DNA of 35,121 nucleotides, taken from NCBI GenBank assembly GCA_014376445.1, contig JACMRM010000284.1:1-35121 (forward strand), given 5' to 3'. Origin of the DNA: Bacteriovorax sp. (GTDB lineage: Bacteria; Bdellovibrionota; Bacteriovoracia; Bacteriovoracales; Bacteriovoracaceae). Below the pieces are notes generated by a model. The model ran no database searches. It saw only the letters and a program-made list of their open reading frames with translations, and was not told where the DNA came from. The position numbers and the translations under genes were made by a program. Of the stretch, positions 9,039-32,340 are shown one piece after another. Position 1 is the first letter of the stretch, and each line of letters begins with the position of its first letter.

Positions 9039-10052
9039 ATGATTTTGATCACTACGCCAGATTATTTACCCAGACTCGGTGGTTTAACAACACTGACTCT
9101 CGACCTTGAAAAAGTGCTGAATGCTTTAGGAATAAAGTATGAAGTTTTTCATTGGAGTTCTCAATCCGAAATAATTTCTTACCCAAATCAAAATTTAGAA
9201 AAATATAAACTGATCATCAATGTTCACTTTCTTTTTGGTTACTTCAAAAAAAAGCTTCAGGGAAAAATGATTAACATTATTCACGGAAGTGAAGTGATGT
9301 TCTCATCACCTATATGGTGGAAACGCATAGTTAAAAAAGCACTTCGTGCAAAAATGATTGCTCACCTGGAATCATGTCAGACTAATCTTTTTATTTCTGA
9401 ATTCACATTCAACCTTATGACGAAATTTTCTTACAAGACGAATTATGGACGTGATGTCGTTTACCATAATGGTATTGATACTGCTTCAAGTGCTTTCATT
9501 TCGAAAGATCTTAACAGTGCTGAAGTAATTAAGTTTGTATGCATCGCTCGCGATGTAAAGCATAAGAACCTTGCCGGCTGTGTGAAGCTTTGTGAGATGG
9601 CGCAGGACAAATTAAATAAAAAAGTCCAGCTGACTCTTCCAAAGGATGCTCACTATACTTCTTCAAAGATCAGCATCGTAAACCTTAATTCACAAAGTGA
9701 AGAAGATAAAAATAAAGCGTATGCAGACGCACACTTCAATCTTCTTCTTTCTTCATATGATCCGACAAATGGCTTCATGGAAGGATTCGGGCTGACTGTA
9801 CTTGAGTCTGCCGTCTATTCTGCACCAAGTATTGTAATGAGATCGGGTGGTTTAACTGACAGTGTTCATGAAAATGAGACTGGATGGGTTATGAACCACA
9901 TCAATACGCAGGAATTGAGTGATATCTTCGACAACAAAATTTTAAAAGACTACGAACGTGTTTCAAAGAAATGCTTTGACCATACAACCAGTTCTCACCG
10001 TCTTTCTGAATGGGGAAGAATTTTTGGTTCTATCTGTGAGGTAGCAGCATGA
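9039..10052 (+). CDS. GT4-family glycosyltransferase
   Basis: A 337-residue GT-B enzyme and the first gene of the rightward polysaccharide operon. The N-terminal domain begins ILITTPDYLPRLGGL, the usual sugar-nucleotide glycosyltransferase opening with a Gly-rich loop; IIHGSEV supplies a conserved His. VYHNGID (about 148) and FVCIARDVKHKN mark the start of the second Rossmann domain. The nucleotide-binding E-x7-E motif is EGFGLTVLE (248-256), followed by GGLTDSV. It probably adds one sugar to a lipid-linked repeat unit at the inner face of the inner membrane; donor and acceptor are unknown. GAGG lies about 9 bases before the ATG. The next gene overlaps by 4 bases (ATGA). Confidence 0.87.
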   Translation: MILITTPDYLPRLGGLTTLTLDLEKVLNALGIKYEVFHWSSQSEIISYPNQNLEKYKLIINVHFLFGYFKKKLQGKMINIIHGSEVMFSSPIWWKRIVKKALRAKMIAHLESCQTNLFISEFTFNLMTKFSYKTNYGRDVVYHNGIDTASSAFISKDLNSAEVIKFVCIARDVKHKNLAGCVKLCEMAQDKLNKKVQLTLPKDAHYTSSKISIVNLNSQSEEDKNKAYADAHFNLLLSSYDPTNGFMEGFGLTVLESAVYSAPSIVMRSGGLTDSVHENETGWVMNHINTQELSDIFDNKILKDYERVSKKCFDHTTSSHRLSEWGRIFGSICEVAA

Positions 10053-11197
10053 AAGTTGCACTACTTCTAAATACCAATGCACTCGGCGGAGCAGAGAGAA
10101 GCATTATTGAACAGCTTGGACTGGTTCAGGAAAAGATTTCATTAAGCATCTTCATTCCAAAACTTTCAAAAAGCAGCGACAAAGTTCTAGCACTTGTAGG
10201 AAAAAAATTAAATACATCTGCCAGCTATTATCGCATGCCGAAAGCATTCTACAGCCTCAGCCAGCAGGGAAAATTCTTAAGAATAGCCGTTGCTGCTGTT
10301 TCTTTATTAAGCGCTCCACTCTATTTTAAAGACATGGCCCCATTAAAAGATAGCGAAGTTCTTTATTGCAATGGAAACAAAATTGCAATCTGGACATTAA
10401 TCTGGGCATTCATGGCCGGGTATAAAGGAAAAATCATCTGGCACTTTAGAGATTATCCTTCACAAAAAATGGCATTTAAAGATTTCATGAACTTTATGTC
10501 GAAAAAATTTGGTTCTCGCCTTTGCATTGCTGCCAATTCAAAATCGGTCAGTGATTCATTAAAAGAAATCGGAGTTGAACACGTTGACGTAATTTATAAT
10601 ATTGTCGGAGAAATGCCTGAACAGACATTTTCTGCAAATATCGAAACAATCGGTGTTGTTTCAATGATGGCCTCATGGAAAGGTATCCACCAGGTGCTGT
10701 TAATGGCCCATCTTTATGAAAAAGAGCTCAAAGAGCTCGGAATCAAGAATATTGATATTTTCTCGAGTGAAATTTACCAGACAGCTGGTGATCATCTTAC
10801 TTACAGCAACGAACTTCAGGAACTGATGGCAAAATTTCCAAGCTCGTTATTAAACATTAAATATAATCAGACACCTGATCAGATTTTTAAACAAATTGAC
10901 CTTTTGATTCACCCTTCTCTTCAAAAAGAACCGTTTGGAAGAGTAATTCTTGAAGCTTTTCGCTCTAACGTCCCTGTCATCTCAACAGCAATGGGCGGCG
11001 CAAATGAATTGATCGAACAAGGAATGAATGGACTTACATTCTTCAAGTATGACTATGCAGGGCTATTTCTGCAGATTAAAAATCTGGTAATGAATCCGGA
11101 GCTCCGTAAAAATATTGCTGACAACGCTTATAAAAAATCATTTGAAATTGAATCAAATGTAAAAGCAGGCATGGAACATTTACTGGGGGTCGCATGA
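10049..11197 (+). CDS. GT4-family glycosyltransferase
   Basis: A 382-residue GT-B enzyme. The N-terminus LLNTNALGGAERSI carries the GGAE acceptor-site loop of GT4 proteins, and IIWHFRDYPS lies in the central His position. The C-terminal domain contains GVVSMMASWKGIHQ in place of the usual GRL..KG, HPSLQKEPFGRVILEAF as the E-x7-E nucleotide-binding motif, and MGGANELI after it. GAGGT is 6 bases before the start. The gene overlaps its predecessor by 4 bases and its successor by 4, so the three are translationally coupled. It is likely a repeat-unit assembly enzyme; the sugar is unknown. Confidence 0.88.
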   Translation: MKVALLLNTNALGGAERSIIEQLGLVQEKISLSIFIPKLSKSSDKVLALVGKKLNTSASYYRMPKAFYSLSQQGKFLRIAVAAVSLLSAPLYFKDMAPLKDSEVLYCNGNKIAIWTLIWAFMAGYKGKIIWHFRDYPSQKMAFKDFMNFMSKKFGSRLCIAANSKSVSDSLKEIGVEHVDVIYNIVGEMPEQTFSANIETIGVVSMMASWKGIHQVLLMAHLYEKELKELGIKNIDIFSSEIYQTAGDHLTYSNELQELMAKFPSSLLNIKYNQTPDQIFKQIDLLIHPSLQKEPFGRVILEAFRSNVPVISTAMGGANELIEQGMNGLTFFKYDYAGLFLQIKNLVMNPELRKNIADNAYKKSFEIESNVKAGMEHLLGVA

Positions 11198-12243
11198 AGA
11201 ACCTGGTTAACAAAGAAAAAATTTATTTAAATCAAGATAATGATAATCAGGACAATCAGAGCTTCAATGTTGTTGAGGCAGCAGATAAAGTTCTTAAGAT
11301 TATGTACAACTCTACCAGCTATGAACTGAAGTCTGAGCAACATTCAATTACTGAGAGCAAAAAACTAAGAAGATTACCGGCGACAATTGAAATCAGCAGC
11401 ATTACTGTTGATAAAATCAAAGTTACAGAAGCTGCAAAGATCACCTTCGAAACAACGAATGATGAAACCTATACAGTTGCAGGAAGTCAGACAACTTTCC
11501 ATGACGATGTTAACCCTCTTGATGCTGTCAATACTCTTCCAATAGTTCAAAATGATATTGTTGTTGAAACAACACAAATCGTTGAAAAGCAGACTCTAAC
11601 ATATGTAAAAAAAGAGATTCGTCTTAAGAATAAATATTTTTTTAAAGCAAAAGATCACAAGAGCTTTTATCAGGTCGGTGATTCATTCTATCAGGATTTT
11701 AAGAACGGCGAGCGCCTTTTCCTTTTCACAGGACTTAAAGCAAAAGTGGATCAGCAGAAAACGATCTTAGGTATTGCAAGCTTTATCAATTATTTTGATA
11801 CCGCTCAAATTTTGGTCATTACTACTGCCAGTGACAATTCTTATTTCAAAACTATTCTTTCAGAATCTGAAGATAAAAGTCTTCAGCTTGCAGATGGAAT
11901 TGATCTCGATATTCATACACTTGAAGGTATAAACTTTGTAGATCTTGATTGTATCGCAAGGGCCTGCATGCAAAACTCGGAAACAGACTATGAGCAGATC
12001 GTTGCATTATTAAGCGGTCATTTCGACTGTATCCTGTGCGATCTTCCGGAAGTATTGGAAAAAAAATCACCTCACCTGGAATTTTATCTTCCAGTTTATA
12101 AAATTGCTAACAGCGTGAGCTTCATTATGGCATCTAACAAATCTTCATTTAGTAAGGTAGGTAAATTAATGAATTATTTTTCTTCTTATAACATTAAGAT
12201 CAAAGGTGCATTATTTTCAGACAACTTAGGGGAAACTAGATGA
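11194..12243 (+). CDS. Degenerate BY-kinase/CpsD-like P-loop protein, copy 1
   Basis: A 349-residue protein with no standard motif set; I place it by comparison with the next gene and with the kinase domain of Wzc/CpsD co-polymerase partners. Residues 1-140 are a low-complexity, probably disordered extension. From about 147 it has YFFKAKDHKSFYQVGDSF, then LFLFTGLKAKVDQQKT at the Walker A position (175-190) with the Gly-rich loop gone, then FDCILCDLPE (277-286) at the Walker B position, and a final strand NIKIKGALFSD like the GVVLN end of BY-kinases. There is no Tyr-rich tail. It is soluble, immediately upstream of its paralogue and two genes upstream of the Wzz protein. Catalytic activity looks doubtful; a scaffold or regulatory role is inference. 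Confidence 0.55.
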   Translation: MKNLVNKEKIYLNQDNDNQDNQSFNVVEAADKVLKIMYNSTSYELKSEQHSITESKKLRRLPATIEISSITVDKIKVTEAAKITFETTNDETYTVAGSQTTFHDDVNPLDAVNTLPIVQNDIVVETTQIVEKQTLTYVKKEIRLKNKYFFKAKDHKSFYQVGDSFYQDFKNGERLFLFTGLKAKVDQQKTILGIASFINYFDTAQILVITTASDNSYFKTILSESEDKSLQLADGIDLDIHTLEGINFVDLDCIARACMQNSETDYEQIVALLSGHFDCILCDLPEVLEKKSPHLEFYLPVYKIANSVSFIMASNKSSFSKVGKLMNYFSSYNIKIKGALFSDNLGETR

Positions 12244-13049
12244 TGAACAGCTTGGGATTTAAACCAATTATTACGGGCAATGAAGAAGTTTCTGAATCAT
12301 CAGAAAAACAGGCAAGCAAACTAAGACTTCAGGGTGAGTTTACTAATTCACAAAATAACAATCGCCCTTTGGCGAAATATTTTTATAAAGTGACAAATCA
12401 TCACGAGTTTTATCAGATAGGAAATTCATTTCTAAAAGATTTCCGAGAAGGCTTTAAAAGTTTTGCCATTACCTCTACAGGATACAAGCAGTCACAACAA
12501 AGAACAATTCTTGCTCTTGCAAGTTTCTTTGACCACGCAATGCCTATGAAAATTGCCATTGTTACCAATGAAATGGGCGAAGGTGTATTCAAAGAATTGA
12601 TCAACAAATCTTTAGATACGGATCTTGAACTTAGTATGACAAACGCAAATCAGATGAAAGTAAAAAGATTTTATCATCACTTCGATTTTGTCTCTTTTGA
12701 TTCAATTTTTAAAATGGCCCCTGCCGGAGTTCCAAATTACGAATATGAACATGCTATCAGCCAGTTCATCCGCAATTACGATCTGGTGCTCTGGGACACA
12801 CCTGAAATCAGCGCATTCAAAGCGAACAACAATCTATATTATCCGATTGCACTTTATTTTGACTCACTTTCAATTATTGTTTCACAAACTCTTTCATCTC
12901 AGTCTGAAATTATTGAGCTCCAGGAGTTTTTTACGAATTACGGAGTAAATATTAAGGGATTGATGCTTGATTATACGACCCAAAAATCTATAAAGAAAAA
13001 AAGCTTCTTACGGTTTTTAGCGCCATGGAGAAAAGTTGAGAAAACTTAG
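12240..13049 (+). CDS. Degenerate BY-kinase/CpsD-like P-loop protein, copy 2
   Basis: A 269-residue paralogue of the preceding gene without its long N-terminal extension. Shared landmarks are YFYKVTNHHEFYQIGNSFLK (about 47-66), FAITSTGYKQSQQRTILAL (75-93) at the Walker A position, YDLVLWDTPEI (180-190) as a good Walker B/Asp motif, and VNIKGLMLDY near the end, matching the GVVLN strand of BY-kinases and MinD-like ATPases. The Walker A Lys is replaced by Arg and the GxxxxGK glycines are missing. The C-terminus (KKKSFLRFLAPWRK) is basic, with no Tyr cluster. It overlaps the previous gene by 4 bases and the Wzz gene by 14, which supports a partnership with the Wzz protein. Confidence 0.6.
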   Translation: MMNSLGFKPIITGNEEVSESSEKQASKLRLQGEFTNSQNNNRPLAKYFYKVTNHHEFYQIGNSFLKDFREGFKSFAITSTGYKQSQQRTILALASFFDHAMPMKIAIVTNEMGEGVFKELINKSLDTDLELSMTNANQMKVKRFYHHFDFVSFDSIFKMAPAGVPNYEYEHAISQFIRNYDLVLWDTPEISAFKANNNLYYPIALYFDSLSIIVSQTLSSQSEIIELQEFFTNYGVNIKGLMLDYTTQKSIKKKSFLRFLAPWRKVEKT

Positions 13050-14550
13050 TGCCGTCTTAGACGAAGTCACTTTTTTAAACTTTCCATTTTTATGGAAACA
13101 GATCCTTCGTTACCGTTGGTTGATGCCTCTATTTCCGATTTTATTTATTGGCTGCATGTTTATGTTTCAAAAAACTCAATTCACTATTTATAGTCTTAAC
13201 CTTGAAGCGAAGCTCGCCAGTAAACCAGGTACCGGGGTTACTTCAGGTATTGCACAATCAATGATGCTTGACGGACAATCTGCAATTTCTTATGAAGAGC
13301 TTGCTGCTCTCATTGCAAGCTATGAGTTCCAGCATTTGATCGCTCAGGAAATTGTAGCATCATCAGATTTCCAACAAATGAACTTCACCCCAATCAATGC
13401 TTCATCTTTTAGAAAATGGAAGCAGATTTTTGGTTCTTGCGGCGGAAGTAAGGACTGTGAAGTTGATATCGTTACAAATGTTATCAACCGTTTTTATGAT
13501 GTAAAAAAAGGGCAGACTGAAGGGCGTTTTACTTTTTCTGTGACATCCCTTGATCCGATGACTACACAAAAACTTGCGCGCTTCATGATCGATTCAATTA
13601 CAAAATCAAGACTGAAGGCCACTCAGACTGTGTATATCCAGCAGTCACAACATGCTGAAGAGATGATCCAAAAAAGTCGTGAGGAAATGGCGGGACACGG
13701 TGGAGTTGAAGCTCTTGGGCAGTTCAAATCTAATGAAATGAAAATGACTGAACTGAAAGAAAAGATCACAGCTTTACAGAATATGGCCGGTCAGGACCTG
13801 TCTGTACTTTTAACTATGGATTTAAAACTTAAAGAATCGAATCCAACCCGCAATCTGGCTAACGCAACCAGTGATAACCGTTATGCACTTAATGCAGAAA
13901 AATTTAAAAATAAAATTTTAAAAGCAGATGAGTTAAGACAAAACATTGCAACCCTATCTTCGATCTCTCCATCTGAGCGTTCACAAACAGATGAAGTGAT
14001 CTTAATGCAATTGCAAGCAGAATTAAAGAATCTTGAAAAAGAACTCAATTTTTCTACAAAAAACCCAAAGCAATTAACTGATGATGACAATTTTCAGTCA
14101 GCACAGTTAAGCAATAAAAATTACCTGGACTTTGAATCACAGGTTTTAAAAAAGAAGCTTGCGAAAGAGCAAATTGAAATTAAATCGCTGAGTGCTGAAC
14201 TGGAAAAGACTATTCAGAAAAACTTGGCCTTAGAATCTAGTTCATCCTTATTAAGACAAGATATGGAGTATATCAAACTACTCGAATCAAAACTTATTTC
14301 AATTAAGCTGATGATCGCAACTATCACACCAGATCTATTATTCGAAAAATATAATACGCAATTAGATGAGTTCAATCGCAGCTCAGCAATTAAAAATATT
14401 CTATTCGCATTTTTATTTTCATTTTCAATTTACTTCTTCACAGTGTTATTTCGCTATTTCTTAGACGATCGGTTATATGAAGAACACGAAATCAAAAAGT
14501 GCTTCCAAGATCTTGCAATTATTGGAAAGACTCCTGACTTTGATTACTGA
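13036..14550 (+). CDS. Wzz/GumC-type polysaccharide co-polymerase
   Basis: A 504-residue polysaccharide co-polymerase controlling chain length. It has an N-terminal transmembrane helix (about 28-45), a large periplasmic part with long alpha-helical coiled-coil stretches (about 200-445, rich in Glu/Lys/Gln), and a second helix (about 454-474, ILFAFLFSFSIYFFTVLF). The cytoplasmic tail DDRLYEEHEIKKCFQDL then AIIGKTP resembles the linker that joins Wzz domains to kinases in Wzc, but no kinase domain follows; the two degenerate P-loop genes upstream may fill that place. The start is TTG, supported by GGAG six bases upstream. The protein is much longer than E. coli WzzB and resembles GumC/VpsO-like proteins. 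Confidence 0.82.
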   Translation: MRKLSAVLDEVTFLNFPFLWKQILRYRWLMPLFPILFIGCMFMFQKTQFTIYSLNLEAKLASKPGTGVTSGIAQSMMLDGQSAISYEELAALIASYEFQHLIAQEIVASSDFQQMNFTPINASSFRKWKQIFGSCGGSKDCEVDIVTNVINRFYDVKKGQTEGRFTFSVTSLDPMTTQKLARFMIDSITKSRLKATQTVYIQQSQHAEEMIQKSREEMAGHGGVEALGQFKSNEMKMTELKEKITALQNMAGQDLSVLLTMDLKLKESNPTRNLANATSDNRYALNAEKFKNKILKADELRQNIATLSSISPSERSQTDEVILMQLQAELKNLEKELNFSTKNPKQLTDDDNFQSAQLSNKNYLDFESQVLKKKLAKEQIEIKSLSAELEKTIQKNLALESSSSLLRQDMEYIKLLESKLISIKLMIATITPDLLFEKYNTQLDEFNRSSAIKNILFAFLFSFSIYFFTVLFRYFLDDRLYEEHEIKKCFQDLAIIGKTPDFDY

Positions 14551-14566
14551 TTATTCCCCCACGCTC

Positions 14567-14595
14567 TTGATAAAGAAAATTTTCCATCATACTAT
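14567..14595 (+). promoter_or_regulatory. Possible sigma70 promoter just upstream of the SLBB gene
   Basis: TTGATA (14567-14572) and TACTAT (14590-14595) are 17 bases apart. The predicted start point falls at or next to the ATG at 14602, which has no ribosome binding site, so the transcript could be leaderless. Confidence 0.35.
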
Positions 14596-14601
14596 TATCC
14601 C

Positions 14602-15177
14602 ATGTTAAAACTATACAAACTCCCAATTCATTTTTTTGTGATATTTTCTCTGTTTTTTCAAAGCTATTTGACCGTGGCCTCTGCTGCAGAAAAAGCTAAG
14701 GAATCTGAAGAAATTACGCAGCCGACTTACAACCTTCAAGAAATGGCGTTGCCATCAGATCTAAAAGATATGACGAAACAAGGTGGAGCAGTTTATTATT
14801 CTACTCCTTCAAAAAATAAAGTTTTGATGCCTGTTCACTTCTGGGGTTACATGCAAAAACCAGGATTGCACTTCATCCCTACTGAAACTCCTTTTGTTAA
14901 GGCATTGTCTTTAACTGGCGGCCCACTTCCGGGCGCAAGGCTGGACAGCATTTACCTGACACGCCTTGAAAATGGTGTCACTCATAAATATGAATTTGAT
15001 GTAAGCGATGGTGGAACTGAAGAAACACAAAAATTTGCAGTTAAGCCCGGTGATATTGTTTTTATTCAACAAGACCGCTTCATTGAAAATCGCGCATACT
15101 ACACTTCTCTCATTTCAATCGGCATTTCAATTTTAAGCGGTATCCTGCTTTACAGAGAAATCAGAAGAGACAGATAG
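14602..15177 (+). CDS. Minimal SLBB-domain polysaccharide export protein
   Basis: A 191-residue exported or inner-membrane protein. A signal-peptide-like segment (about 1-29, ending TVASAAE) is followed by one SLBB domain: VHFWGYMQKPGLHFIP (about 78-93), VKALSLTGGPLPGARLDSI (about 99-117), YLTRLENG, and VKPGDIVFIQQD (about 147-158). A hydrophobic helix (about 164-183) then ends in a basic RREIR-like tail. Wza-type exporters have an N-terminal polysaccharide-export domain and usually two SLBB repeats; both that domain and the second repeat are absent. It may link the Wzz protein to an outer-membrane pore encoded elsewhere. It follows the Wzz gene by 51 bases. Confidence 0.75.
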   Translation: MLKLYKLPIHFFVIFSLFFQSYLTVASAAEKAKESEEITQPTYNLQEMALPSDLKDMTKQGGAVYYSTPSKNKVLMPVHFWGYMQKPGLHFIPTETPFVKALSLTGGPLPGARLDSIYLTRLENGVTHKYEFDVSDGGTEETQKFAVKPGDIVFIQQDRFIENRAYYTSLISIGISILSGILLYREIRRDR

Positions 15178-15181
15178 TTAA

Positions 15182-16264
15182 ATGAATATTCTCCAGCTTT
15201 CAAAATATTATGATCCTGTTAATGGAGGCATCGAGCTTGTTGCAAAACAAGTAACGAAAGCTTTGGTTCAGGCACACCATAAAGTTACAGTCGTCGCCTT
15301 CTCAAAAAATAATTCAGTCAGAACAGGCAAACTTGGTGAAGAAATCATAGAAGTAAAAGAGAACCTGCACTTTATGTCAGCACCTCTCAGTTTTCTTTTT
15401 TTCTTAAAATTTAAAAAGCTTATCAGTGAAAAGAAAATTGATGTCATATATGTACATCTTCCAAATCCTTTTATGCATGAAGTGATCAGTTTTCATAAAG
15501 GCTTTTTAAAAAAATATAATGTAAAAGTCATCGGGATTTACCACAGTGATATTCTGAATAAAAAATTTATCGGTAAATTGTACCAGAAATACTTCCTGGC
15601 ATTTGAAGGCGCGTACGACTCCTTCATTTCATCGAGCAAAAATCTGCAGCTGACATCTCCTGTATTAGGTGAAGTCAAACCAGATAAAGTAAAAGTTATT
15701 CCATTTTGTGTGGAAGAAATAAATCCCTTTATTTTGCGAAGTAATTTTAAAGGTAAACTATTAAGTATCGGACGGCTTGTTCCTTATAAAGGATTTGAAT
15801 TTCTTATTGATGCTGTAAAAGGCACTAATCTCCAGTTAACAATTGTAGGTGGAGGCCCGCTTTTTAGTAAGCTGAATGAAAATCTTCCTTCAAACGTAAA
15901 ACTTCTTGGCGACATCAGTGATGAACAAAAAAATAAACTTCTGCTTGAAAGCGATATATTGGTAGTTTCTTCCAATAGCCGTGCTGAAGCTTTCGGTATG
16001 ACCATCGTAGAAGCTTTCCAGGCAGGCCTGCCGGTTCTTGCTACTCAAATAAATACAGGAGTTACATTCCTCGTAAATCATAAGCACACAGGTCTCACCT
16101 ACCCTATCAATGATAAAAAAGCTTTACTTGAGCAGTTCGAAGAATTGAATTCAAATAAAAATCTTCTGGGTGAATTGTCGCAAGGATGCTTTAATTTTTA
16201 CAGCTCCCATCTCAAGTTTCAATATTTTCAGGAAAAAATTCTGGGACAACTTAAAAATCTCTAA
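15182..16264 (+). CDS. GT4-family glycosyltransferase
   Basis: A 360-residue GT-B glycosyltransferase and the last gene of the rightward operon. It begins ILQLSKYYDPVNGGIELV, the classic YxPxxGGxE opening of GT4 enzymes. GIYHSDIL carries the central His. LLSIGRLVPYKGFEFLIDAV marks the donor-binding domain, and AEAFGMTIVEAF holds the E-x7-E motif, followed by QINTG. The best overall match is to the mannosyl/galactosyl-transferase-like GT4 group, but the donor cannot be read from sequence. It starts 4 bases after the SLBB gene with only a weak ribosome binding site. Its TAA overlaps the TAG of the convergent ligase gene in the shared bases CTAA. Confidence 0.9.
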   Translation: MNILQLSKYYDPVNGGIELVAKQVTKALVQAHHKVTVVAFSKNNSVRTGKLGEEIIEVKENLHFMSAPLSFLFFLKFKKLISEKKIDVIYVHLPNPFMHEVISFHKGFLKKYNVKVIGIYHSDILNKKFIGKLYQKYFLAFEGAYDSFISSSKNLQLTSPVLGEVKPDKVKVIPFCVEEINPFILRSNFKGKLLSIGRLVPYKGFEFLIDAVKGTNLQLTIVGGGPLFSKLNENLPSNVKLLGDISDEQKNKLLLESDILVVSSNSRAEAFGMTIVEAFQAGLPVLATQINTGVTFLVNHKHTGLTYPINDKKALLEQFEELNSNKNLLGELSQGCFNFYSSHLKFQYFQEKILGQLKNL

Positions 16265-17448
16265 ACAATCTCAAAGAATGCTTTTAAATTTTCCGGCCAT
16301 TTTTTCGTCTCAATTCCGTACTGAGCGAGGACAGTAAATATTGTTCTCTCCAGACCGAAACCAACACAGCCGCTGAAAACAAACTCTTTATTTTCAAAAG
16401 TGATATTGAAGGCCTTCGAAAAATGAAAACCATGAAAATTCATAGAACCGATTGAAACATCATTACCAGAAAACGGGTTCATGACTCTGATTTCAAACTT
16501 GCTGTCTTCTGCAACTTGATAGAACTGTAACGCCCTCGCATTCTCCTGAAAGAATGGATCCGAAGCTGCCTTAATAGAGCTGTTAAGCTTGAATTCTGTA
16601 AGGAAATTTTTAAACCAATTCTCGCATTCTAAAAGTTTTGTCTTAACAAAATCTTTTGAACCAAAATAAATGATTTCTCTGCATGAAAATTCAAAAAGTC
16701 TTTCAAGACTGGTCACTTTTTTATATTCGTGTCTGAAAACTCTTCCTTCGGCCGTATAAACCAGAGACTGGTCATTTTTAAAGACAGCGTTTCTTAAAGT
16801 TGGATAACAGTTCAGACAAACTGCTGACCGACAGATGCATTTGGGCTCTTTTAAATAAGGCTTCAATGAAGTTTCTTCATTCTTATTTTTACCGTCAACG
16901 AGTTTTGAAAAATCAGATATATTTTTTGCCTCTTCCTCTAAGGGAGAAATAAAATTCGCGTGCTGGGGAGTTCTCTGAAAGTAATGGGCAGGAGTCAAGT
17001 CATCAAAATGAACTGTTACCGGAAGCAGTATAGGTTCGGCATACTGTGTTTTAGCAAATTTTTTCAGCTGATCATCAAGAACCATAAACATATGTAGAGG
17101 AAGTCCTTTCAGGGCCACAAACCCTTCCTGGAGAATAATAACATCCCCCTTATCTACCAGTGCTGAAAAGACATCCCCTTTCTCCAGAAAGGAAGCTGAA
17201 CTTTGGTCAAATAAAACTTTCACAGGAATGCTCTTTAAAGGCTTTATTTTTTTAAGCAGCTCGTGAACTGACTGCTCAAGTGCAGTTGTATCTGTTCCAG
17301 GCTTTACTTCCAGATGGATGAAGTCTGAAGTAATTTGATAACTCGTGATCGAAGTTGAAAGGTAAGGAAGATTATTGTCCATACTCTCTTTAGCGTGTTC
17401 ATCGAGAGGTGACTGAAGTTTTATAGAAAGTAATTTTTTATCGGTCAT
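16261..17448 (-). CDS. Amino acid:[carrier protein] ligase, class II aaRS-like
   Basis: A 395-residue homologue of class II aminoacyl-tRNA synthetases of the atypical SerRS-like group that loads amino acids onto carrier proteins rather than tRNA. Signatures in the C-terminal catalytic half are NCYP (C214), motif 2 VFRHE (237-241), FEFSCREIIYFGS (E258), ASDPFF (295-300), KFEIR, SMNFHGFHFSKAFNI (335-349) and motif 3 GCVGFGLERTI (360-370). C214, E258 and C361 are candidates for the Cys-Glu-Cys zinc site of this family. Residues 1-190 are an extra N-terminal region I cannot assign; characterised members are shorter. It follows the carrier protein by 16 bases and closes the Dlt-like cassette. Inferred role: activate an amino acid with ATP and thioesterify it to the carrier protein. 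True tRNA charging is unlikely because no tRNA-binding arm is evident. Confidence 0.85.
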   Translation of the reverse strand: MTDKKLLSIKLQSPLDEHAKESMDNNLPYLSTSITSYQITSDFIHLEVKPGTDTTALEQSVHELLKKIKPLKSIPVKVLFDQSSASFLEKGDVFSALVDKGDVIILQEGFVALKGLPLHMFMVLDDQLKKFAKTQYAEPILLPVTVHFDDLTPAHYFQRTPQHANFISPLEEEAKNISDFSKLVDGKNKNEETSLKPYLKEPKCICRSAVCLNCYPTLRNAVFKNDQSLVYTAEGRVFRHEYKKVTSLERLFEFSCREIIYFGSKDFVKTKLLECENWFKNFLTEFKLNSSIKAASDPFFQENARALQFYQVAEDSKFEIRVMNPFSGNDVSIGSMNFHGFHFSKAFNITFENKEFVFSGCVGFGLERTIFTVLAQYGIETKKWPENLKAFFEIV

Positions 17449-17464
17449 AATTTCTATCCTTTAA

Positions 17465-17701
17465 TCAAGCTATTTTTTCTTCCAGTATTTCGATAATTTT
17501 TTCGACTGTATTAAGTTCTACAATCTCATGCACTTCAAAAGATACATTAAATTCAGATTCGATGGACATCACAAGCTCCAGGTGCTTCATCGAGTCCCAT
17601 TCATCCAGATTATCCATGGTGCTTCTTTCAGTGACCTGCTCAGGATTAATCTCGAGAATGTCTGAAAATATTTTTTGAAGTTTCGCTAAACTATGCTCCA
17701 T
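17465..17701 (-). CDS. Acyl carrier protein (DltC-like amino acid carrier)
   Basis: A 78-residue acidic four-helix carrier protein. The phosphopantetheine site is EWDSMKHLELV with Ser37 in the DSM motif, which resembles DltC and NRPS-type carriers (WDSMxH) more than the DSLD of fatty-acid ACP. AGGAG lies 5 bases before the ATG, the strongest ribosome binding site in this operon, as suits a protein needed in excess. It sits between the microprotein and the aaRS-like ligase, so it should be the ligase's substrate and the donor for the MBOAT. It needs a phosphopantetheinyl transferase, not present in this window. No fatty-acid synthesis genes are nearby. Confidence 0.93.
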   Translation of the reverse strand: MEHSLAKLQKIFSDILEINPEQVTERSTMDNLDEWDSMKHLELVMSIESEFNVSFEVHEIVELNTVEKIIEILEEKIA

Positions 17702-17709
17702 TAAAACTC

Positions 17710-17814
17710 CTAAAACTCATATTGAAAGCCAAAATGACTTTCGCCTGTTATAATAATCATTATCAGCATAATAATCATGAATGCAATTTTGAGATATCCA
17801 AATTCTTTAAGCAT
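17710..17814 (-). CDS. DltX-like single-helix microprotein
   Basis: A 34-residue gene. The ATG at 17814 abuts the MBOAT stop codon (TAGATG), with AGGG nine bases upstream inside the end of the MBOAT gene, and the TAG at 17710-17712 overlaps the carrier-protein ribosome binding site. The product has a short N-terminus (MLKEFGYLK), one transmembrane helix (about 10-23, very rich in Ile and Met), and a polar tail GESHFGFQYEF. Size, single helix and an aromatic C-terminus with a penultimate-region Tyr match DltX, the small membrane protein of D-alanylation operons, whose C-terminal F-x-Y-type motif is reported to carry the acyl group (from memory). Position between MBOAT and carrier protein supports that role. 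It is too short for certainty. Confidence 0.7.
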   Translation of the reverse strand: MLKEFGYLKIAFMIIMLIMIIITGESHFGFQYEF

Positions 17815-19017
17815 CTATTTAATCCCTAAAAGGTTTAAAAAATAATGATATTTATCTGTAAAAAAGAAAAGGCCTAAAATAAAATAATGATATGTTATCA
17901 CCACAGACAAGATTTTAATGCCATTCGATTTATTATAAAATGTTTTGAAGGCAAGTGTACCTTTTTTCAAAAGAAAATGCCTCCAGATCAGATAGATGCT
18001 GTAGCAAATACCGTGATAAAGTCCGTAATAAAAATAATGTTTTGAACTTCCATGCCATAAACCTGCAATGAGGAAAGTGACAAAAAATCCCAATGAAGCA
18101 ACTAGAACGGTATTTTTAATTTTTACTGTTTTAAGCAAGAACATCTGTAATGGGTAATAAACATAATCACGCAGCCAGTGCATAAAGCTTATATGCCAGC
18201 GATTCCAGAATTCCTGAATATTTTTCGAGCTGAATGGACTATTAAAGTTTTCAGGAACCTTAATGCCAAACAGCCCACCTACTCCTACTGCCACATCTGA
18301 ATAGCCTGAGAAATCAAAATAAAGAACCATGCTGTAAATATACATAGAGATCATAACTTTATAAAAAGGTAGCAGCAAGACATCTGGTGTATACATACTA
18401 TCAATTGAAAGATTCGCAAGGAAATCAGCAATAACTATTTTTTTAAAAGTTCCAAGAACAATTCTATAAATATTCTCCAGAAGCTCTTTTATGTCGGGTT
18501 CATTTTCTTTTTCTGTTTCAGAAACAAAGTGTCCATATTTATCGAGAGGTCCGCTTAAGTATGATGGAAAAAAAGTAATATAATTGTAATAATCAATAAA
18601 AGTGATTTCGCGTTTAATGGCTTTGCGTTTTAAATCTACAAACAAAGATATCAGCCTGAATGTCACGAATGATAAACCGATGAAAGCAATCGTCGGAGCA
18701 ATCCCCCTTAAGACCGTAAACTGCAGTGCTGAGTACTTTAACTCAATAAAAACTAGGGCAGTAAAACTCACTAGGAATGCGGACAGATTTTTTCTTTCTT
18801 CTTTTTCAGACAACCATTTTGCAGCAAAATATCCGGTCAGAAGAATTAACTGAAAAGAGGCAAACTGCTTTTTATTAAAATAAAAATACAGCACATGAAA
18901 AAGAATATTTATCACAAAAATTACATTTTTTTTGCTGGTAATTTTCTGCCCGGCGTACAAGAGCGCAACCGAGAATAGAACAAAGTATAAATAATAAAAC
19001 GTCTGATAATCAATCAT
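17815..19017 (-). CDS. DltB-like MBOAT acyltransferase
   Basis: A 400-residue membrane-bound O-acyltransferase with about 10-12 membrane segments. DltB/AlgI signatures are FFPSYLSGPLDKY (149-161), YFDFSGYSDVAVGVGGLFGI (233-252), PENFNSPFSSKNIQEFWNRW (255-274) with H275 just after, and the catalytic-His motif AGLWHG (318-323, H322). The PENFN...WNRWHIS block is the form seen in both DltB and AlgI/PatA. DltB accepts an acyl group from DltC at the cytoplasmic face and moves it across the membrane; the adjacent carrier protein fits that better than an acetyl-CoA donor. AGGCGG lies about 7 bases before the ATG. The start overlaps the SGNH gene by 8 bases. Confidence 0.93.
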   Translation of the reverse strand: MIDYQTFYYLYFVLFSVALLYAGQKITSKKNVIFVINILFHVLYFYFNKKQFASFQLILLTGYFAAKWLSEKEERKNLSAFLVSFTALVFIELKYSALQFTVLRGIAPTIAFIGLSFVTFRLISLFVDLKRKAIKREITFIDYYNYITFFPSYLSGPLDKYGHFVSETEKENEPDIKELLENIYRIVLGTFKKIVIADFLANLSIDSMYTPDVLLLPFYKVMISMYIYSMVLYFDFSGYSDVAVGVGGLFGIKVPENFNSPFSSKNIQEFWNRWHISFMHWLRDYVYYPLQMFLLKTVKIKNTVLVASLGFFVTFLIAGLWHGSSKHYFYYGLYHGICYSIYLIWRHFLLKKGTLAFKTFYNKSNGIKILSVVITYHYFILGLFFFTDKYHYFLNLLGIK

Positions 19018-20011
19018 GCTTAACCGCCTGAGTGTTTATCTTCAAGTTAAAATCCATGCTCAGTTGCTTCCCGAGAATTTCATACCCCTCAGGTGTCAAG
19101 TGAATAAAGTCGTGGAAGTAACGTGCATCGCTTGGTACTAGATTAACGTAATCAAAAAACTCAATATTCTCATTCGCGAGAAGATCCTTGACCTCTGAAC
19201 GGTATCTATTGAAGTCATTTACATTATAAAATTTCTCTACCCAAAGCTGAGGCTCAAGAAACACGATCAGTTTTATATTGTTATCTTGGCATGTTTGATT
19301 CAGTTTACGTATTAAGCGATAAGGATCTTTTCGTTTAAGGACCGAATCCATCGAAAGCACTTTTTGACCACCGATATTTTTATCCATAATATCGCCGTAT
19401 AAAATCTTTCTGAAATTATAGATTTTTGATCTGATTGCTGTGATAACCACATTAGGAAGAACATTCGTTGAGTATATTTCTAAGTAAGTTTTTCCCACCA
19501 ATTTTCTTTTTCGCTCAAGCTGAACATTCTTAACAATATCCTCAGGAAGTAGACCCTGTAGATTACTAGCTTCGTACATGGCCATAAAACTTCCGCTACT
19601 ATCTGAAAAGAGATCTGGGCTGATCCCTAAAATGACATATTTAGGTTTTTTATAATTCATGCCTTTATTGAGCATAATGACAGAATCTACAATTGTTGCC
19701 TGTAAGGAAGCAAGATTGTAAGCGTAATAATTATTTTGAAATTTGTTAAAGTAATCAGCGGTCGTTGTATCTTCAGGGATATTACTCCCTGCAGTTCCTG
19801 AACTTCCCAGCATAAAAATACCAGGCCTTGAAATCGCATTCGTTGAAATAATATGCTGCTTTAAATTTACTGATTCAAAATAAAAATAATTAGGTTTTGC
19901 TTCCGGCGATACCTTATGGGCCAAAAACTTATTCAAAAAGCAGATTAACAAAAAGATAAAAAAAATGGCTCGTTTCATTGCTTTTAGTTTACCAGATATT
20001 GAATTTTTCAT
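19010..20011 (-). CDS. DltD-like SGNH-hydrolase-fold membrane-anchored protein
   Basis: A 333-residue protein with one N-terminal transmembrane anchor (about 15-30, IFFIFLLICFLNKFL) and an extracytoplasmic SGNH domain. Block I is FMLGSSGTAGSN (66-77) with the nucleophile likely S71; YNLA (98-101) supplies the Asn-region; the C-terminal block V is FHDFIHLTPEGYE (299-311) with D301 and H304. DltD and AlgJ/PatB-like proteins with this plan partner with MBOATs and perform or assist the final transfer to the polymer outside the membrane. The gene overlaps the MBOAT gene by 8 bases. An alternative start is the ATG at 19978, which would shorten the cytoplasmic N-terminus. It follows a methyltransferase by 50 bases. 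Confidence 0.8.
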   Translation of the reverse strand: MKNSISGKLKAMKRAIFFIFLLICFLNKFLAHKVSPEAKPNYFYFESVNLKQHIISTNAISRPGIFMLGSSGTAGSNIPEDTTTADYFNKFQNNYYAYNLASLQATIVDSVIMLNKGMNYKKPKYVILGISPDLFSDSSGSFMAMYEASNLQGLLPEDIVKNVQLERKRKLVGKTYLEIYSTNVLPNVVITAIRSKIYNFRKILYGDIMDKNIGGQKVLSMDSVLKRKDPYRLIRKLNQTCQDNNIKLIVFLEPQLWVEKFYNVNDFNRYRSEVKDLLANENIEFFDYVNLVPSDARYFHDFIHLTPEGYEILGKQLSMDFNLKINTQAVKHD

Positions 20012-20061
20012 CTTGAAAATAAAAGGTCTCTTAAACCCGACTATCCTGGTAATGTTCGGTC

Positions 20062-20727
20062 TTATTTTTTTGCGATGAAGATAAGATTGTCAGAAAATAC
20101 TCCATTGATAAAAAGATTACGACTACCAGGAAATAGCCTTTGCCAGTAGCATTTTAGCCCTGGCATTCTTCCTAGCTGGCTTGGATAGACCTGGATATTT
20201 TTCATCTGCAGTTCACCAAGAATTCTCAGTATATCTATTTTATGCAGAGGCGTGATGTGAGCAGGGTAATTTTTTCCTGCAAAAGCAGAATGCACACCTC
20301 TGAAAATTAAACTTAAAAGGCTCGTCAATGAATGAAGATTTGGAATACTCACAATAACATATCCAGAATCACCAAGATGCAGACTTGCCTGTCTCATCAA
20401 GTGACGCGGATTTTCCATAAAGTGCAACACTTCAACAACTGTTATAGCATCAAACTTTTTCTGCAAATCAAAAAGCTCATTGAGATTCAACTGATGAAAC
20501 ATTTCTCTTTTTTCTGAAAATGTATAGTCTGCTTCTTCGATCTTGTAGGAATTATTTTTTGCTAGAAATTTTTTTAAATTTCCTATACCAGCGCCAAGAT
20601 CCAGAATCGTGGCAGAATAATTTAAATGCAATTTTAATAAAGCTTCAATCTCTGAATACAAATGCTCAGCAGAAGTGCCCTTGCTATCCTTGCATCTCTT
20701 GTTTAACAAAGAATCTATATTGCTCAC
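20062..20727 (-). CDS. Class I SAM-dependent methyltransferase
   Basis: A 221-residue Rossmann-fold methyltransferase of the UbiE/Methyltransf_11-12 kind. Motif I is ILDLGAGIGNLKKFL (about 41-55), the acidic post-I region is EEADYTF, and the FDAITVVEVLHFMENPRHLM stretch with GYVIVSIPNLHSL (about 125-142) gives motifs II-III. It has no membrane segment. Its ATG overlaps the flippase stop by 4 bases, so it acts with the polysaccharide operon, probably methylating a sugar or the chain end before export; methyl capping as in O-antigen termination is an inference. Confidence 0.8.
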   Translation of the reverse strand: MSNIDSLLNKRCKDSKGTSAEHLYSEIEALLKLHLNYSATILDLGAGIGNLKKFLAKNNSYKIEEADYTFSEKREMFHQLNLNELFDLQKKFDAITVVEVLHFMENPRHLMRQASLHLGDSGYVIVSIPNLHSLTSLLSLIFRGVHSAFAGKNYPAHITPLHKIDILRILGELQMKNIQVYPSQLGRMPGLKCYWQRLFPGSRNLFINGVFSDNLIFIAKK

Positions 20728-22232
20728 AATTTTGCACCTTTCTTTGCAAATAATTTTTGAATTCTTTCAATCATTTCTCTTTTCTCACTCTTGCTGAAAA
20801 AAATGGCAACTGACAAAGAGAGGAAGATGACTCCTACAACCCCGCCTTTGAATGCAAATTGAAACCAACCATGGACCTCAATGAGACCTCCATTCATTTC
20901 AAGTAACTTACCAGCAAATCCTGCAAATGCCAGCGGAAGAATCCAACTCAAGTGCAATCGTAGAAGAGAAGTATTAAAGTGCCTTCTCAGTAAAAAACTA
21001 AGCCAGAATGTCGTAACAAAAATATAGGTAATAAGGGTTCCGGTAATCGGTCCGATTGCACCAAAATATTTTGTTAAAAGGACACTTAATATAATGTTGG
21101 TTCCGGCCTGAACCCACATCGCCTTAGAAATTTTATCAACCAGCTGAGAAAAGTTAAAGCACCATCCCCATAAAGCAAGAATAGGAAGAAAAAATGCATT
21201 CAGGCAAGCAATCAGAGTAAAAAGGCGACCTGCATACTCTCCCTCACCTGTCCAGAGACTGATGAAAGCATGATTAAAAATATAAATACATAGTAAAAAT
21301 GCTGATCCAAAAACAGAAGTGATTTTCGTAAGCTCTATAAGTCTTTTATTGAAGAGAGGCATATCATTCGAATGATAGATAGCTCCTAATGTCGACCATG
21401 TAGAATTTCCAATATTAAGAAGCTGAGTTTGAACTAGCTGCGGTAGCTTTTGAGTAACAAAGAATGGAACGACAAACTTAGGCCCGAGAAAAAGTGCAAT
21501 GATCAGGTTGTCGCACATCAGGCATACTCTTCCTGATAATTCATTGAAGAAATAGGCCACTCTCAATTTATTACTTGAAAGATCTTTATGAAATTCTTCG
21601 CTTGCCGTTTCAACATTAATATTTGCAAAATACTTAAGAAGTTTGAAGTTAATGTATGATGCTATCACGGTTGCCACAACCTGCCCTGTAAGGCTCGAAT
21701 GAAAATAAGCAATCGCAACAGCACTCAAGGTAAAGATCAGGGAATTTAGCATCTGAAGCCAGTTCACAATATAATTTTTATGGTTGGCTTCCAGATAAGC
21801 TTTATAAGGCAGCATCGGAAGAACAATAAAAAATGCCTGGCATAACACTAATGAGATTATCAGGTCACCGCGGTTATCTGATAAAGCAAAACGATGATAA
21901 AACCAGATAGAAAAAAAAATTGAAACAATAAAACTGGTTAAAGCTACCTTTTTATAGGATTTCACTCCCCACTTAACAATTGAAAAAGCTTTTCCATTTT
22001 TAGTATGAACTTCTTTAACTAAAAATCCTAAGAGGGTACTATAAAGACCGAATTCAAGTATTGAAAAGTGACCAAAAAAATCAATGAGTGTTTTATAAAG
22101 TCCAAAGTTGCTGTCACCAATGTGCCTGATGAGATACGGCGTAGTGAAAAGCCCCAGCAGCATTGTGATAATATTTTTAATACCGCTAGAACCAAGATTA
22201 ATTATAGGAGTACGGGCACGGTTTAATTTCAT
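20724..22232 (-). CDS. Wzx-like polysaccharide flippase (MOP superfamily)
   Basis: A 502-residue integral membrane protein with about 12-14 hydrophobic segments. The opening INLGSSGIKNIITMLLGLFT followed by TPYLIRHIGDSNFGLYKT is the recognisable Wzx/PST N-terminus. Pairs of charged residues interrupt helices as in lipid-linked oligosaccharide flippases. It would move the undecaprenyl-linked repeat unit from the inner to the outer face of the inner membrane. It overlaps both neighbouring methyltransferase genes by 4 bases. It is the only flippase seen in the window, so it probably serves the whole locus. Confidence 0.88.
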   Translation of the reverse strand: MKLNRARTPIINLGSSGIKNIITMLLGLFTTPYLIRHIGDSNFGLYKTLIDFFGHFSILEFGLYSTLLGFLVKEVHTKNGKAFSIVKWGVKSYKKVALTSFIVSIFFSIWFYHRFALSDNRGDLIISLVLCQAFFIVLPMLPYKAYLEANHKNYIVNWLQMLNSLIFTLSAVAIAYFHSSLTGQVVATVIASYINFKLLKYFANINVETASEEFHKDLSSNKLRVAYFFNELSGRVCLMCDNLIIALFLGPKFVVPFFVTQKLPQLVQTQLLNIGNSTWSTLGAIYHSNDMPLFNKRLIELTKITSVFGSAFLLCIYIFNHAFISLWTGEGEYAGRLFTLIACLNAFFLPILALWGWCFNFSQLVDKISKAMWVQAGTNIILSVLLTKYFGAIGPITGTLITYIFVTTFWLSFLLRRHFNTSLLRLHLSWILPLAFAGFAGKLLEMNGGLIEVHGWFQFAFKGGVVGVIFLSLSVAIFFSKSEKREMIERIQKLFAKKGAKL

Positions 22233-22963
22233 TTTTTCTTAAAGCCCAAAAATACGAAAGACATCTGATGACCTAAAAAATCTATCGGGTATTCGCTATT
22301 GGTCCATCCATTTTTTAATTCACTTGAGATGAGTTCAAATCCGTTGCTTTTAGCTTCTTCAACCAGTTTTAGGATTTCTTCATTGGAAAAGATCATATAG
22401 CTCAAGTTGAAAATCTTGAAATTTGGATCAATTTTTATTTTTTCAGCGTGAAAGTCTGTCGTAATAAGCACAAGTCCATCAGGTTTTAAAAGTCCATGAC
22501 ATACCTTAAAAAAATTTACCTGTTCAAAACCATGCTCGATCACTGATAGGGCCGTGATGACATCAAGACTTTGAGAAGCAACGGTTGATTTGTAGAAATT
22601 TTCCTGGCGGAACTGAATCTTGTTTCCATACCAGTTGATCGCTCTTCCAATTGGATTAAAATCTGCGGCCATAATATTGCGATAGCCACTCCACCAGAGC
22701 GCCAGAGGAATTTCGCAATTATATGAGCCCATATCATAGATGGCCGTATTTTTATCCGGCTTCATCTTTTGAATTGTTTTAAGAATGGTAAGTACATCCC
22801 ATGATTTATTAACAGCGACCTGCTCGGCAGGCTTTCTGAATCTAAGCCAATAAAGTGCTTGATAAACTCTGCGAGCAAACTTAGTGCTACTGTCTACTCC
22901 AGCTTCCTTTAACTCAGCTCGTGCTTCTCTAATCTGTTCTTTAGATTTTAAAACTTCAATCAT
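22229..22963 (-). CDS. Class I SAM-dependent methyltransferase-like protein
   Basis: A 244-residue Rossmann-fold protein. AIYDMGSYNCEIPLALWW (about 78-95) lies at the motif I position with a non-canonical loop (GSYNCE rather than GxGxG), followed by NIMAADFNPIGRAI (acidic post-I) and SLDVITALSVIEHGFEQVNF then GLVLITTDFHAEKI. The N-terminal 60 residues are basic and helical. It probably methylates a sugar, but the altered motif I leaves some doubt about cofactor binding. It overlaps the GT4 gene upstream and the flippase gene downstream by 4 bases each. Confidence 0.7.
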   Translation of the reverse strand: MIEVLKSKEQIREARAELKEAGVDSSTKFARRVYQALYWLRFRKPAEQVAVNKSWDVLTILKTIQKMKPDKNTAIYDMGSYNCEIPLALWWSGYRNIMAADFNPIGRAINWYGNKIQFRQENFYKSTVASQSLDVITALSVIEHGFEQVNFFKVCHGLLKPDGLVLITTDFHAEKIKIDPNFKIFNLSYMIFSNEEILKLVEEAKSNGFELISSELKNGWTNSEYPIDFLGHQMSFVFLGFKKK

Positions 22964-24087
22964 ATACTTTTCTCATATAAGTTCATGCGGCCTTTAATAT
23001 AACTATCCCATGAATAATTTTCGTTAAGGAGCTTAATTTGATCTTTCATTCCTTCTAGCTGTGAAGGATTGCTGACGATGTCTGATAAAATGCTGGTCAT
23101 ACCAACAGGATTTTTATAGTCGTAAAATTTTATTCCTTTATTTTCCAGCAGAGTTTTTTCTGTTGTTTCACTTTTTGAAGTTATTACCGGAATTTGATGA
23201 GAGACATAGGCAGCAAGCGAGCCGTTTTTAAATGAAGCACCTTCCGAAAATGGAAGAATTCCAAGATCAGAAATCTGAAGGATGGCCGAGACTTCTTTTT
23301 CATCAAGTCGTTCAGTAAAAGTAACAACTTTTTCTAGGCCCATATTCTTAATAAGAAGATTGAGCTCTCTATGATAGGAGTTTTTATCCGGAGTAAACTG
23401 ACCGATGAGAATCAGTCTCAGTTTATCAGAATTAATTTCTTTCATGGCATTTAAAATATCCTCGATTCCTCTATTCGATGAAAAATGACCAAAGTAACTC
23501 ATATAAATTAGCGAAGGGTCATGGCCTTTAAAACTTTGAGTTAAAATCTTTTTCAGCGGTGTAATTTCAAGCTGAGTGATATTGCTTGGAAAAGGTGCCA
23601 GGTGAAACTTGGGCTGCATTCTCGAATAAGTCACCAAAGCTTTTTTCATGAAATGTTCAGAGTAAAAAATGACTTCCTGAAATAAAGTATATTGAATCAA
23701 TCGCCAGAACTTTTGGCTTAATTTAGGAAGATGCTCTGAGTGCAAAGTAAGGATTTTTTTAATTTTTCTTGGAAGCAATAATGGAAGCAGAAGAATCACT
23801 CCGCTATTAGCATACATAAAAGACTCATACTGTATGTCTACCACATCAAAATTTTCTGCTTTAATCCATTCGGCTATTTCTTTTACTTTAAAAAAATTCC
23901 ATTTCCCGTCAAAAATTTTGACTTGGATATTGTCTTTTTTTATTGAGTTTGTATTCGATGTGATTAAGGATACTTGATGATGTTGCGAAAGCTTTGTCGA
24001 TAAATTATCAACGAAATCTGCAGCACCACATGGGTAACCCATGGTGGGAAAATGTGGACAAATAATACATACTTTCTTGCTTTCCAA
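22960..24087 (-). CDS. GT4-family glycosyltransferase
   Basis: A 375-residue GT-B enzyme and the first gene of the nine-gene leftward operon. It begins VCIICPHFPTMGYPCGAADF, a GT4-like opening with the Gly-Ala acceptor loop. TLHSEHLPKL gives the central His. YMSYFGHFSSNRGIEDIL opens the donor domain and LPFSEGASFKNGSLAAYVSH replaces the standard E-x7-E region: the first Glu is present, but the second position is less clear. GT4 members with this EGxSxRxGSL-like form are known among glycosyltransferases of O-antigen loci. The sugar is not predictable. It is divergent from the WecA-like gene, with promoters expected in 24088-24166. Confidence 0.83.
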   Translation of the reverse strand: MESKKVCIICPHFPTMGYPCGAADFVDNLSTKLSQHHQVSLITSNTNSIKKDNIQVKIFDGKWNFFKVKEIAEWIKAENFDVVDIQYESFMYANSGVILLLPLLLPRKIKKILTLHSEHLPKLSQKFWRLIQYTLFQEVIFYSEHFMKKALVTYSRMQPKFHLAPFPSNITQLEITPLKKILTQSFKGHDPSLIYMSYFGHFSSNRGIEDILNAMKEINSDKLRLILIGQFTPDKNSYHRELNLLIKNMGLEKVVTFTERLDEKEVSAILQISDLGILPFSEGASFKNGSLAAYVSHQIPVITSKSETTEKTLLENKGIKFYDYKNPVGMTSILSDIVSNPSQLEGMKDQIKLLNENYSWDSYIKGRMNLYEKSI

Positions 24088-24166
24088 TGTGAATCCTCAG
24101 GCTTGTAAATCTTTCGGCAATATTTACCAAAGAAAATTTTATCTGCATCCGAACTTTAATTTAACT

Positions 24167-25396: not shown

Positions 25397-25418
25397 TTTT
25401 CATATATAATCTCTATAA

Positions 25419-30076: not shown

Positions 30077-30148
30077 AATGTCCTCTTTGAGAAAAAACAA
30101 TTATACCTTATATTATAGCCTAGAGAATGAAATTTGAGAAAAGTATAT

Positions 30149-32339: not shown

Positions 32340-32340
32340 T

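Follow-up and report, generated by a model that had tools for sequence, protein, structure and literature searches.

The DNA stretch analyzed here (the window: 35,121 nucleotides, contig JACMRM010000284.1 of the Bacteriovorax sp. assembly GCA_014376445.1, from a bacterium related to predatory species, phylum Bdellovibrionota) carries a five-gene cassette that likely encodes a Dlt-type envelope aminoacylation system, in which the carrier protein is loaded by an amino acid:[carrier protein] ligase with a seryl-tRNA synthetase (SerRS) core. The cassette occupies the minus strand at 16261-20011, in the order SGNH protein, membrane-bound O-acyltransferase (MBOAT), microprotein, carrier protein and ligase. 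The SGNH and MBOAT genes share 8 bases and the later spacings are 0, 8 and 16 bases. Five minus-strand genes with a largest gap of 16 bases had been placed at these positions by the initial annotation, and the five identities it gave them also hold, with several of the family matches under the cut-offs of the models. The genes are as follows.

19010..20011, minus strand: DltD-like SGNH protein, 333 aa, with a single N-terminal hydrophobic helix and S71, D301 and H304
17815..19017, minus strand: DltB-type MBOAT of 400 aa that has H275 and H322 and lacks a C-terminal shuttle motif
17710..17814, minus strand: DltX-like membrane microprotein of 34 aa with a single, strongly hydrophobic helix, ending in GFQYEF, Y32 being the candidate tyrosine for the acyl shuttle
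17465..17701, minus strand: carrier protein of 78 aa with a WDS motif, S37 being the phosphopantetheine site
16261..17448, minus strand: class II ligase of 395 aa with a SerRS core, taken as a candidate amino acid:[carrier protein] ligase; it has C211, E258 and C361, motif 2 R239 and motif 3 R368

The strongest support for the Dlt-like reading, with an aminoacyl-tRNA synthetase (aaRS) homologue in the place of DltA, comes from a natural exchange of the loading enzyme. In a survey of 368 genomes of the phylum, many of them incomplete, with the ligase as query at a threshold of 1e-5 (genomes are numbered with G and regions with L), genome G015 from the genus of the window was found to encode SGNH protein, MBOAT, microprotein (GFQYEF) and carrier protein in region L071, and no such ligase at this threshold. 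The SGNH gene is preceded at 37 bp by a divergent gene for a 496-residue DltA-like enzyme with an FDVS motif, which matches AA-adenyl-dom at 3.1e-73 (246.9 bits, cut-off 317.4) and DltA at 5.7e-73 (246.2 bits, cut-off 476). The initial annotation had claimed that an aaRS homologue replaces DltA, and the same core with a DltA-like enzyme and without the ligase is what that claim predicts. In G038, which belongs to the same genus as G036 and G037, the genes of region L072 are those for a carrier protein, a protein of 324 residues, an AMP-binding enzyme that is FadD/MenE-like and has no FDxS, the SGNH protein, the MBOAT and a microprotein (GFQYNL). The neighbours in G015 and G038 therefore show one core paired with different loaders, and three kinds accompany it in the phylum, i.e. 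the aaRS-core ligase, the DltA-like amino acid adenylating enzyme and the FadD-like acyl ligase. The 324-residue protein of L072 (4566-5540), which lies between the carrier protein and the FadD-like enzyme, gave no Pfam or NCBIfam match, and by eye we take it to resemble M29-type aminopeptidases.

The trees differ on the direction of this exchange. In a 33-row MBOAT tree the DltA- and FadD-linked rows are nested among the ligase-linked ones with moderate support (94/85 and 94/84, not starred), and an approximately unbiased test on 12 rows gave p 0.043 when the six MBOATs linked to a ligase were made a single clade. The 8-row SGNH tree disagrees, the DltA- and FadD-linked rows not being nested (80/86).

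The ligase was found in 15 of the surveyed genomes, and an MBOAT adjoins it in ten (G000, G009, G034, G036, G037, G069, G093, G150, G157 and G336). Since MBOAT matches at 1e-30 occur in at least 138 of the 368 genomes, this adjacency is more than chance. Co-occurrence was a check proposed by the initial annotation, for which ligases and MBOATs never found together would have spoken against the idea; they are found together. The complete five-part set is present in six genomes (the window and regions L017-L021), and a seventh, L022, has MBOAT, microprotein, carrier protein and ligase. The order SGNH-MBOAT-microprotein-carrier is preserved in the window, L017-L021 and L071. The ligase gene follows the carrier gene in the window, L017 and L022 and lies beside it in L018, L019, L023, L025 and L030, facing it in L018 and L019.

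The window ligase matched the SerRS model PRK00960 at 2.4e-35 (122 bits, cut-off 611) and the amino acid--[acyl-carrier-protein] ligase model NF005479 at 2.9e-31 (109 bits, cut-off 357). A profile of nine such ligases was closest to 4h2w (Bll0957 of Bradyrhizobium, 1.3e-39) and then to archaeal SerRS 3w3s (2.9e-32). When six relatives were scanned singly, L022, L023, L024, L025 and L030 were nearer to carrier-protein ligases and L018 was nearer to SerRS. C211, E258 and C361 fall on a Cys, a Glu and a Cys of Bll0957 in the alignment, positions that we take to be Zn ligands; the arginines of class II motifs 2 and 3 are R239 and R368. An AlphaFold model built from nine rows (mean predicted local distance difference test score, pLDDT, 76.9) matched the core of the Bradyrhizobium ligase with a template modelling (TM) score on the target of 0.81, at 4.4 A and ~22% identity. 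A Pfam scan of the window ligase matched no tRNA-binding domain. A single group in the ligase tree (95/94) contains eight of the ten ligases that are linked to an MBOAT. The possibility that the ligase is the cell's own SerRS was rejected, as a complete bacterial SerRS is encoded elsewhere in the genome (452 bits, above the cut-off) and the window protein matches SerRS models only under cut-off. An attempt to read the amino acid from pocket residues was non-deciding, because the window ligase, the glycine ligase and the SerRS of M. kandleri all have the S-x-N-x-H stretch. From the relatives of the ligase we would expect serine, glycine or alanine as cargo; the sequence did not decide among them.

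The MBOAT matched the DltB model TIGR04091 at 3.3e-75 (253.7 bits, cut-off 375) and the DltB structures 8jem and 6bug at ~4e-42. In the alignment H275 is present in all ten sequences and H322 in nine, and the protein stops at residue 400, without the fused shuttle motif of PatA/AlgI-type MBOATs. The carrier protein matched PF00550 at 4.3e-9, with S37 kept in 10/10 aligned sequences. In the SGNH protein S71, D301 and H304 are kept in all six aligned sequences, and DltD structures headed the fold search with its model (mean pLDDT 73.6; 3bma, E 1.2e-6, TM 0.44, root-mean-square deviation 13.6). A variant MBOAT was seen in L025 (6394-7614), where it adjoins a ligase and a carrier protein, no microprotein was found, and asparagine (FNG) stands in the place of the second conserved histidine (WHG).

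The microprotein gave no match in a Pfam scan, and it looks real and under coding constraint judging from its codons. Compared with that of L017, 17 of the 34 codons are identical, 12 carry synonymous and 5 non-synonymous changes, and 15 of the 21 base differences fall at third positions. A like microprotein stands behind the MBOAT in nine genomes (the window, L017-L022, L071 and L072), followed by the carrier protein in all except L072, and its C-terminus is GFQYEF in seven, GFQYNL in one and NFQYVQ in one. A DNA pattern for GFQY, then Glu/Asp/Asn/Lys, then Phe/Leu, then stop (or Trp) was matched in 17 of the 368 genomes (four for the backward control), and in eight of these it is this microprotein adjoining its MBOAT. 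The other nine were tried as further microproteins and are treated as chance, no MBOAT being present in the 1.8-3.0 kb read. In the studied Dlt and PatAB systems the acyl group is borne by the tyrosine of an FXYXXF motif, according to passages of PMC12148441, and the C-terminus of DltX of Bacillus thuringiensis is given as STFIYNEF in passages of PMC5541007. The window microprotein has a DltX-like end, FQYEF vs. FIYNEF in DltX.

Separate small proteins of 50 and 55 residues, ending in QFVYFNF and GFIYVNF, adjoin short MBOATs in L073 (5157-5309, minus strand) and L074 (7762-7929, plus strand), and no carrier protein was found in the region read in either case. It is possible that these are DltX-like microproteins working with an acyl-CoA donor. 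A rule that a separate microprotein indicates a carrier-protein donor fails, since no carrier was found in L073 and L074 and a carrier is present in 8 of 20 regions with a fused motif; these 20 regions come from near the top of the phylum MBOAT match list, and some end at contig edges.

In the proposed mechanism, the ligase would adenylate a small amino acid with ATP and load it on the carrier protein, on its phosphopantetheine arm at S37. The MBOAT would move the aminoacyl group from the carrier protein inside to Y32 of the microprotein (FQYEF) outside, and S71 of the SGNH protein would then accept it and esterify a hydroxyl on the polysaccharide that the genes around the cassette produce. 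The parts, their order, the conservation of catalytic residues, the co-occurrence and the loader exchange are read from sequence, and each chemical step is modelled on the studied Dlt and PatAB systems.

The polysaccharide is the probable acceptor because the cassette sits in a flippase/glycosyltransferase cluster, location being the sole basis for this assignment. The surrounding features are the following.

20062..24087, minus strand: methyltransferase, flippase (PF01943), methyltransferase and glycosyltransferase, four upstream co-directional, mutually overlapping genes
9039..34558: surrounding polysaccharide cluster, with glycosyltransferases, initiating enzyme, Wzy_C-type protein and acyltransferases
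24041-25396: PF00953-type initiating enzyme
27388-28947: Wzy_C/O-antigen-ligase-type protein
31239-34558: three successive AT3-family (PF01757) acyltransferases, at the cluster edge

The four genes at 20062-24087 are possibly on the same transcript as the cassette, and the order methyltransferase-flippase-methyltransferase-SGNH is preserved in L017. Neighbours in L020 and L071 also resemble the glycosyltransferases of the window. Four genes at 11194-15177 gave no Pfam match at 1e-5.

Several observations weigh against a Dlt-type system loaded by the ligase. The SGNH protein matched the DltD model TIGR04092 weakly (1.7e-5, under the cut-off), its sequence matched no DltD chain in a search of structures at E 1, and general GDSL esterases followed DltD closely in its fold search (7.7e-6). 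Taken alone, the window ligase is nearer to SerRS (phmmer, 4.5e-23 for 3w3s vs. 3.6e-12 for the carrier-protein ligase), archaeal SerRS is the top fold match of its model and the best over its length, and it retains ~110 additional N-terminal residues that are partly alignable with archaeal SerRS. The MBOAT-linked ligases of L025 and L030 fall outside the main ligase clade, which may reflect separate recruitment or long-branch error. Five of the 15 ligase genomes (G013, G019, G159, G164 and G275) have no nearby MBOAT in the regions read; L020 and L021 have a ligase gene that diverges from the SGNH gene and does not adjoin the carrier gene; no microprotein was found in L025 or in L023, which reaches a contig end; and in L030 the motif is fused to the MBOAT. 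The microprotein motif itself is FXYXF, one residue fewer after the tyrosine than FXYXXF. Finally, because the G038 core goes with a FadD/MenE-like enzyme, the core alone leaves the cargo unfixed and would not prove that it is an amino acid.

The likenesses to archaeal SerRS by fold, by phmmer and by PRK00960 would be expected if the ligase were a tRNA synthetase, SerRS or a duplicate of it, located here by chance. We give this explanation the least credence, as the genome has its own SerRS, the window ligase reaches only 122 of 611 bits against the SerRS model, no Pfam tRNA-binding domain was matched, and both the nine-ligase profile and five of the six relatives are nearest to carrier-protein ligases. 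Nor does it seem at all probable that the aminoacyl-carrier supplies a pathway to amides or modified amino acids, of the sort predicted for the ligases of Bradyrhizobium and Agrobacterium, while the MBOAT uses another donor. An acyl-CoA-dehydrogenase-family gene does lie near the ligase in seven of nine annotated plasmid regions, but the window cassette has no such gene, its MBOAT is of the carrier-using DltB type, and the SGNH-MBOAT-microprotein-carrier order is kept in all the regions listed above for it.

A further explanation is that the carrier protein bears a fatty, acetyl or hydroxy-acyl group and that the aaRS-like ligase serves something else. The FadD/MenE-like enzyme preceding the same core in G038 is in its favour, as are the acyl-CoA-ligase-like neighbours of three fused-type MBOATs with a carrier protein (L122, L124 and L128). 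We nevertheless regard it as improbable, given that a Pfam scan found no AMP-binding gene in the window cassette, that the ligase gene follows or adjoins the carrier gene in the window and in L017-L019, L022, L023, L025 and L030, and that the enzyme swapped in for it in G015 is of the amino-acid-adenylating type. Less easily set aside, although still unlikely in our view, is the same machine with another acceptor, so that lipid A, the lipopolysaccharide (LPS) core, peptidoglycan or protein would be aminoacylated. The dlt genes of soft-rot enterobacteria are thought to modify LPS according to passages of PMC5541007 (dltBAC of Dickeya, passages of PMC3544676), AlmEFG glycylates lipid A in Vibrio cholerae according to passages of PMC12930378, and the neighbouring frames of L018 and L019, judged by eye without a domain search, include no obvious glycan genes. 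On the other hand, in both the window and L017 the cassette is surrounded by flippase and glycosyltransferase genes and points the same way as the flippase, and the L020 and L071 neighbours are similar to the glycosyltransferases of the window.

Returning to the Dlt-type system with a SerRS-core loader, a broader proposal is that the MBOAT-microprotein-SGNH-carrier core constitutes a general export chassis with the cargo set by an exchangeable loader, the aaRS-core version esterifying surface polysaccharide with a proteinogenic L-amino acid (serine, glycine or alanine). We put this forward tentatively, with confidence a little short of even.

Fused-motif MBOATs accompanied by a carrier protein and a DltA-like FDxS enzyme were also seen in the phylum, in L120 (4908-8044), L125 (3173-5902), L133 (482-3609), L134 (4407-7544) and L075 (7274-10326). 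Their motifs are FIYFNF or FIYFQF; the L075 MBOAT is split over two frames, and the DltA-like enzyme of L125, cut by the contig end, is assigned by similarity only. Such sets, in 4 of the 20 re-read fused-motif regions plus L075, resemble a Dlt-like system without a separate DltX. In L122 (5609-8946) a fused-motif MBOAT and a carrier protein are accompanied by an enzyme resembling acetate--CoA ligase (634.5 bits, cut-off 729). The donor for surface acylation there may be carrier-bound instead of CoA.

Beyond the phylum, a scan with one peptide pattern, which may omit records near to the window, gave 27 matched stretches of which nine encode a relative; no Dlt-like neighbour of the Clostridium tunisiense ligase (L039) was found. 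Among plasmids, 91 records carry a distant ligase relative, and the 10 regions read showed no MBOAT. Of the nine of these that are annotated, the seven with the acyl-CoA-dehydrogenase-family gene include three with DUF1839, and others have nonribosomal peptide synthetase-type genes. In the Streptomyces plasmid regions L106 and L115, SerRS-like ligases annotated as hypothetical protein belong to gene sets with a carrier protein, acyl-CoA dehydrogenase, hydroxyacyl-CoA dehydrogenase and an acyltransferase-domain protein, which we take to resemble aminomalonyl-type extender gene sets. In L109, from an Apilactobacillus kunkeei plasmid, a distant relative annotated as hypothetical lies beside genes annotated as D-alanine--D-alanine ligase and aminotransferase.

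With Dlt (DltA/B/C/D/X, of Gram-positive and a few Gram-negative bacteria) the cassette shares the carrier protein, the DltB-type MBOAT, a one-helix microprotein with a candidate shuttle tyrosine, the DltD-like SGNH protein and a tight gene set. It differs in that its loader has a class II aaRS core whereas DltA is an AMP-binding enzyme, in the motif FQYEF instead of FXYXXF, in the Bdellovibrionota host and in the probable surface-polysaccharide target. We regard the cassette as a Dlt-type system in a new version, with the loading enzyme swapped, one that would work like Dlt; it is kept outside Dlt membership because the DltA feature was looked for and not found in it. Bll0957 (3mey/4h2w) has in common with the window ligase the SerRS-type core, the aligned Zn-ligand positions and a nearby carrier gene, but the window ligase is longer by the N-terminal extension and ~22% identical to it over the core, as given above, and its partners are the MBOAT, microprotein and SGNH protein rather than acyl-CoA-dehydrogenase-family and DUF1839 proteins. 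AlmE of V. cholerae is presumably an AMP-binding enzyme, unlike the window ligase. The AlmEFG system shares with the cassette a carrier-loaded amino acid that is moved to an envelope molecule (passages of PMC12930378). The PatA/PatB and AlgI/AlgJ acetylation systems share the MBOAT and SGNH pair and the shuttle tyrosine; PatA has the motif as part of the MBOAT itself and uses acetyl-CoA as donor (passages of PMC12148441), whereas the window has a separate microprotein and a carrier protein. Gram-negative dlt genes are described for Dickeya and Pectobacterium in passages of PMC5541007 and PMC3544676.

The initial annotation knew of no described system with this full combination, and a literature search of open-licence PubMed Central papers, without preprints, likewise found no paper with it. 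The idea is nonetheless partly anticipated, as a 2010 note in proof predicts that a SerRS-like ligase and a carrier protein ligate an amino acid to a cell-surface sugar; in the passages of that paper the partner is the uncharacterised neighbour Atu2574, not an MBOAT or SGNH protein (PMC2922099). The passages of a review of aaRS-like carrier-protein ligases mention no MBOAT (PMC9437257).

If the Dlt-type reading is true, the aaRS-like carrier-protein ligases, whose downstream pathway is treated as open by the initial annotation and in the passages cited here, would gain a defined one, and Dlt-type machinery would be seen to accept, in nature, loading enzymes of two unrelated folds. A wider range of sequences would be known for the acyl-shuttle motif, and attention would be drawn to a protein of 34 residues that is easy to miss. 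With its five small genes, the cassette would make amino acid decoration of surface glycans in Gram-negative bacteria testable. If the chassis proposal is also true, it would represent a non-peptide outlet of aaRS-core ligases and a new decoration of polysaccharides.

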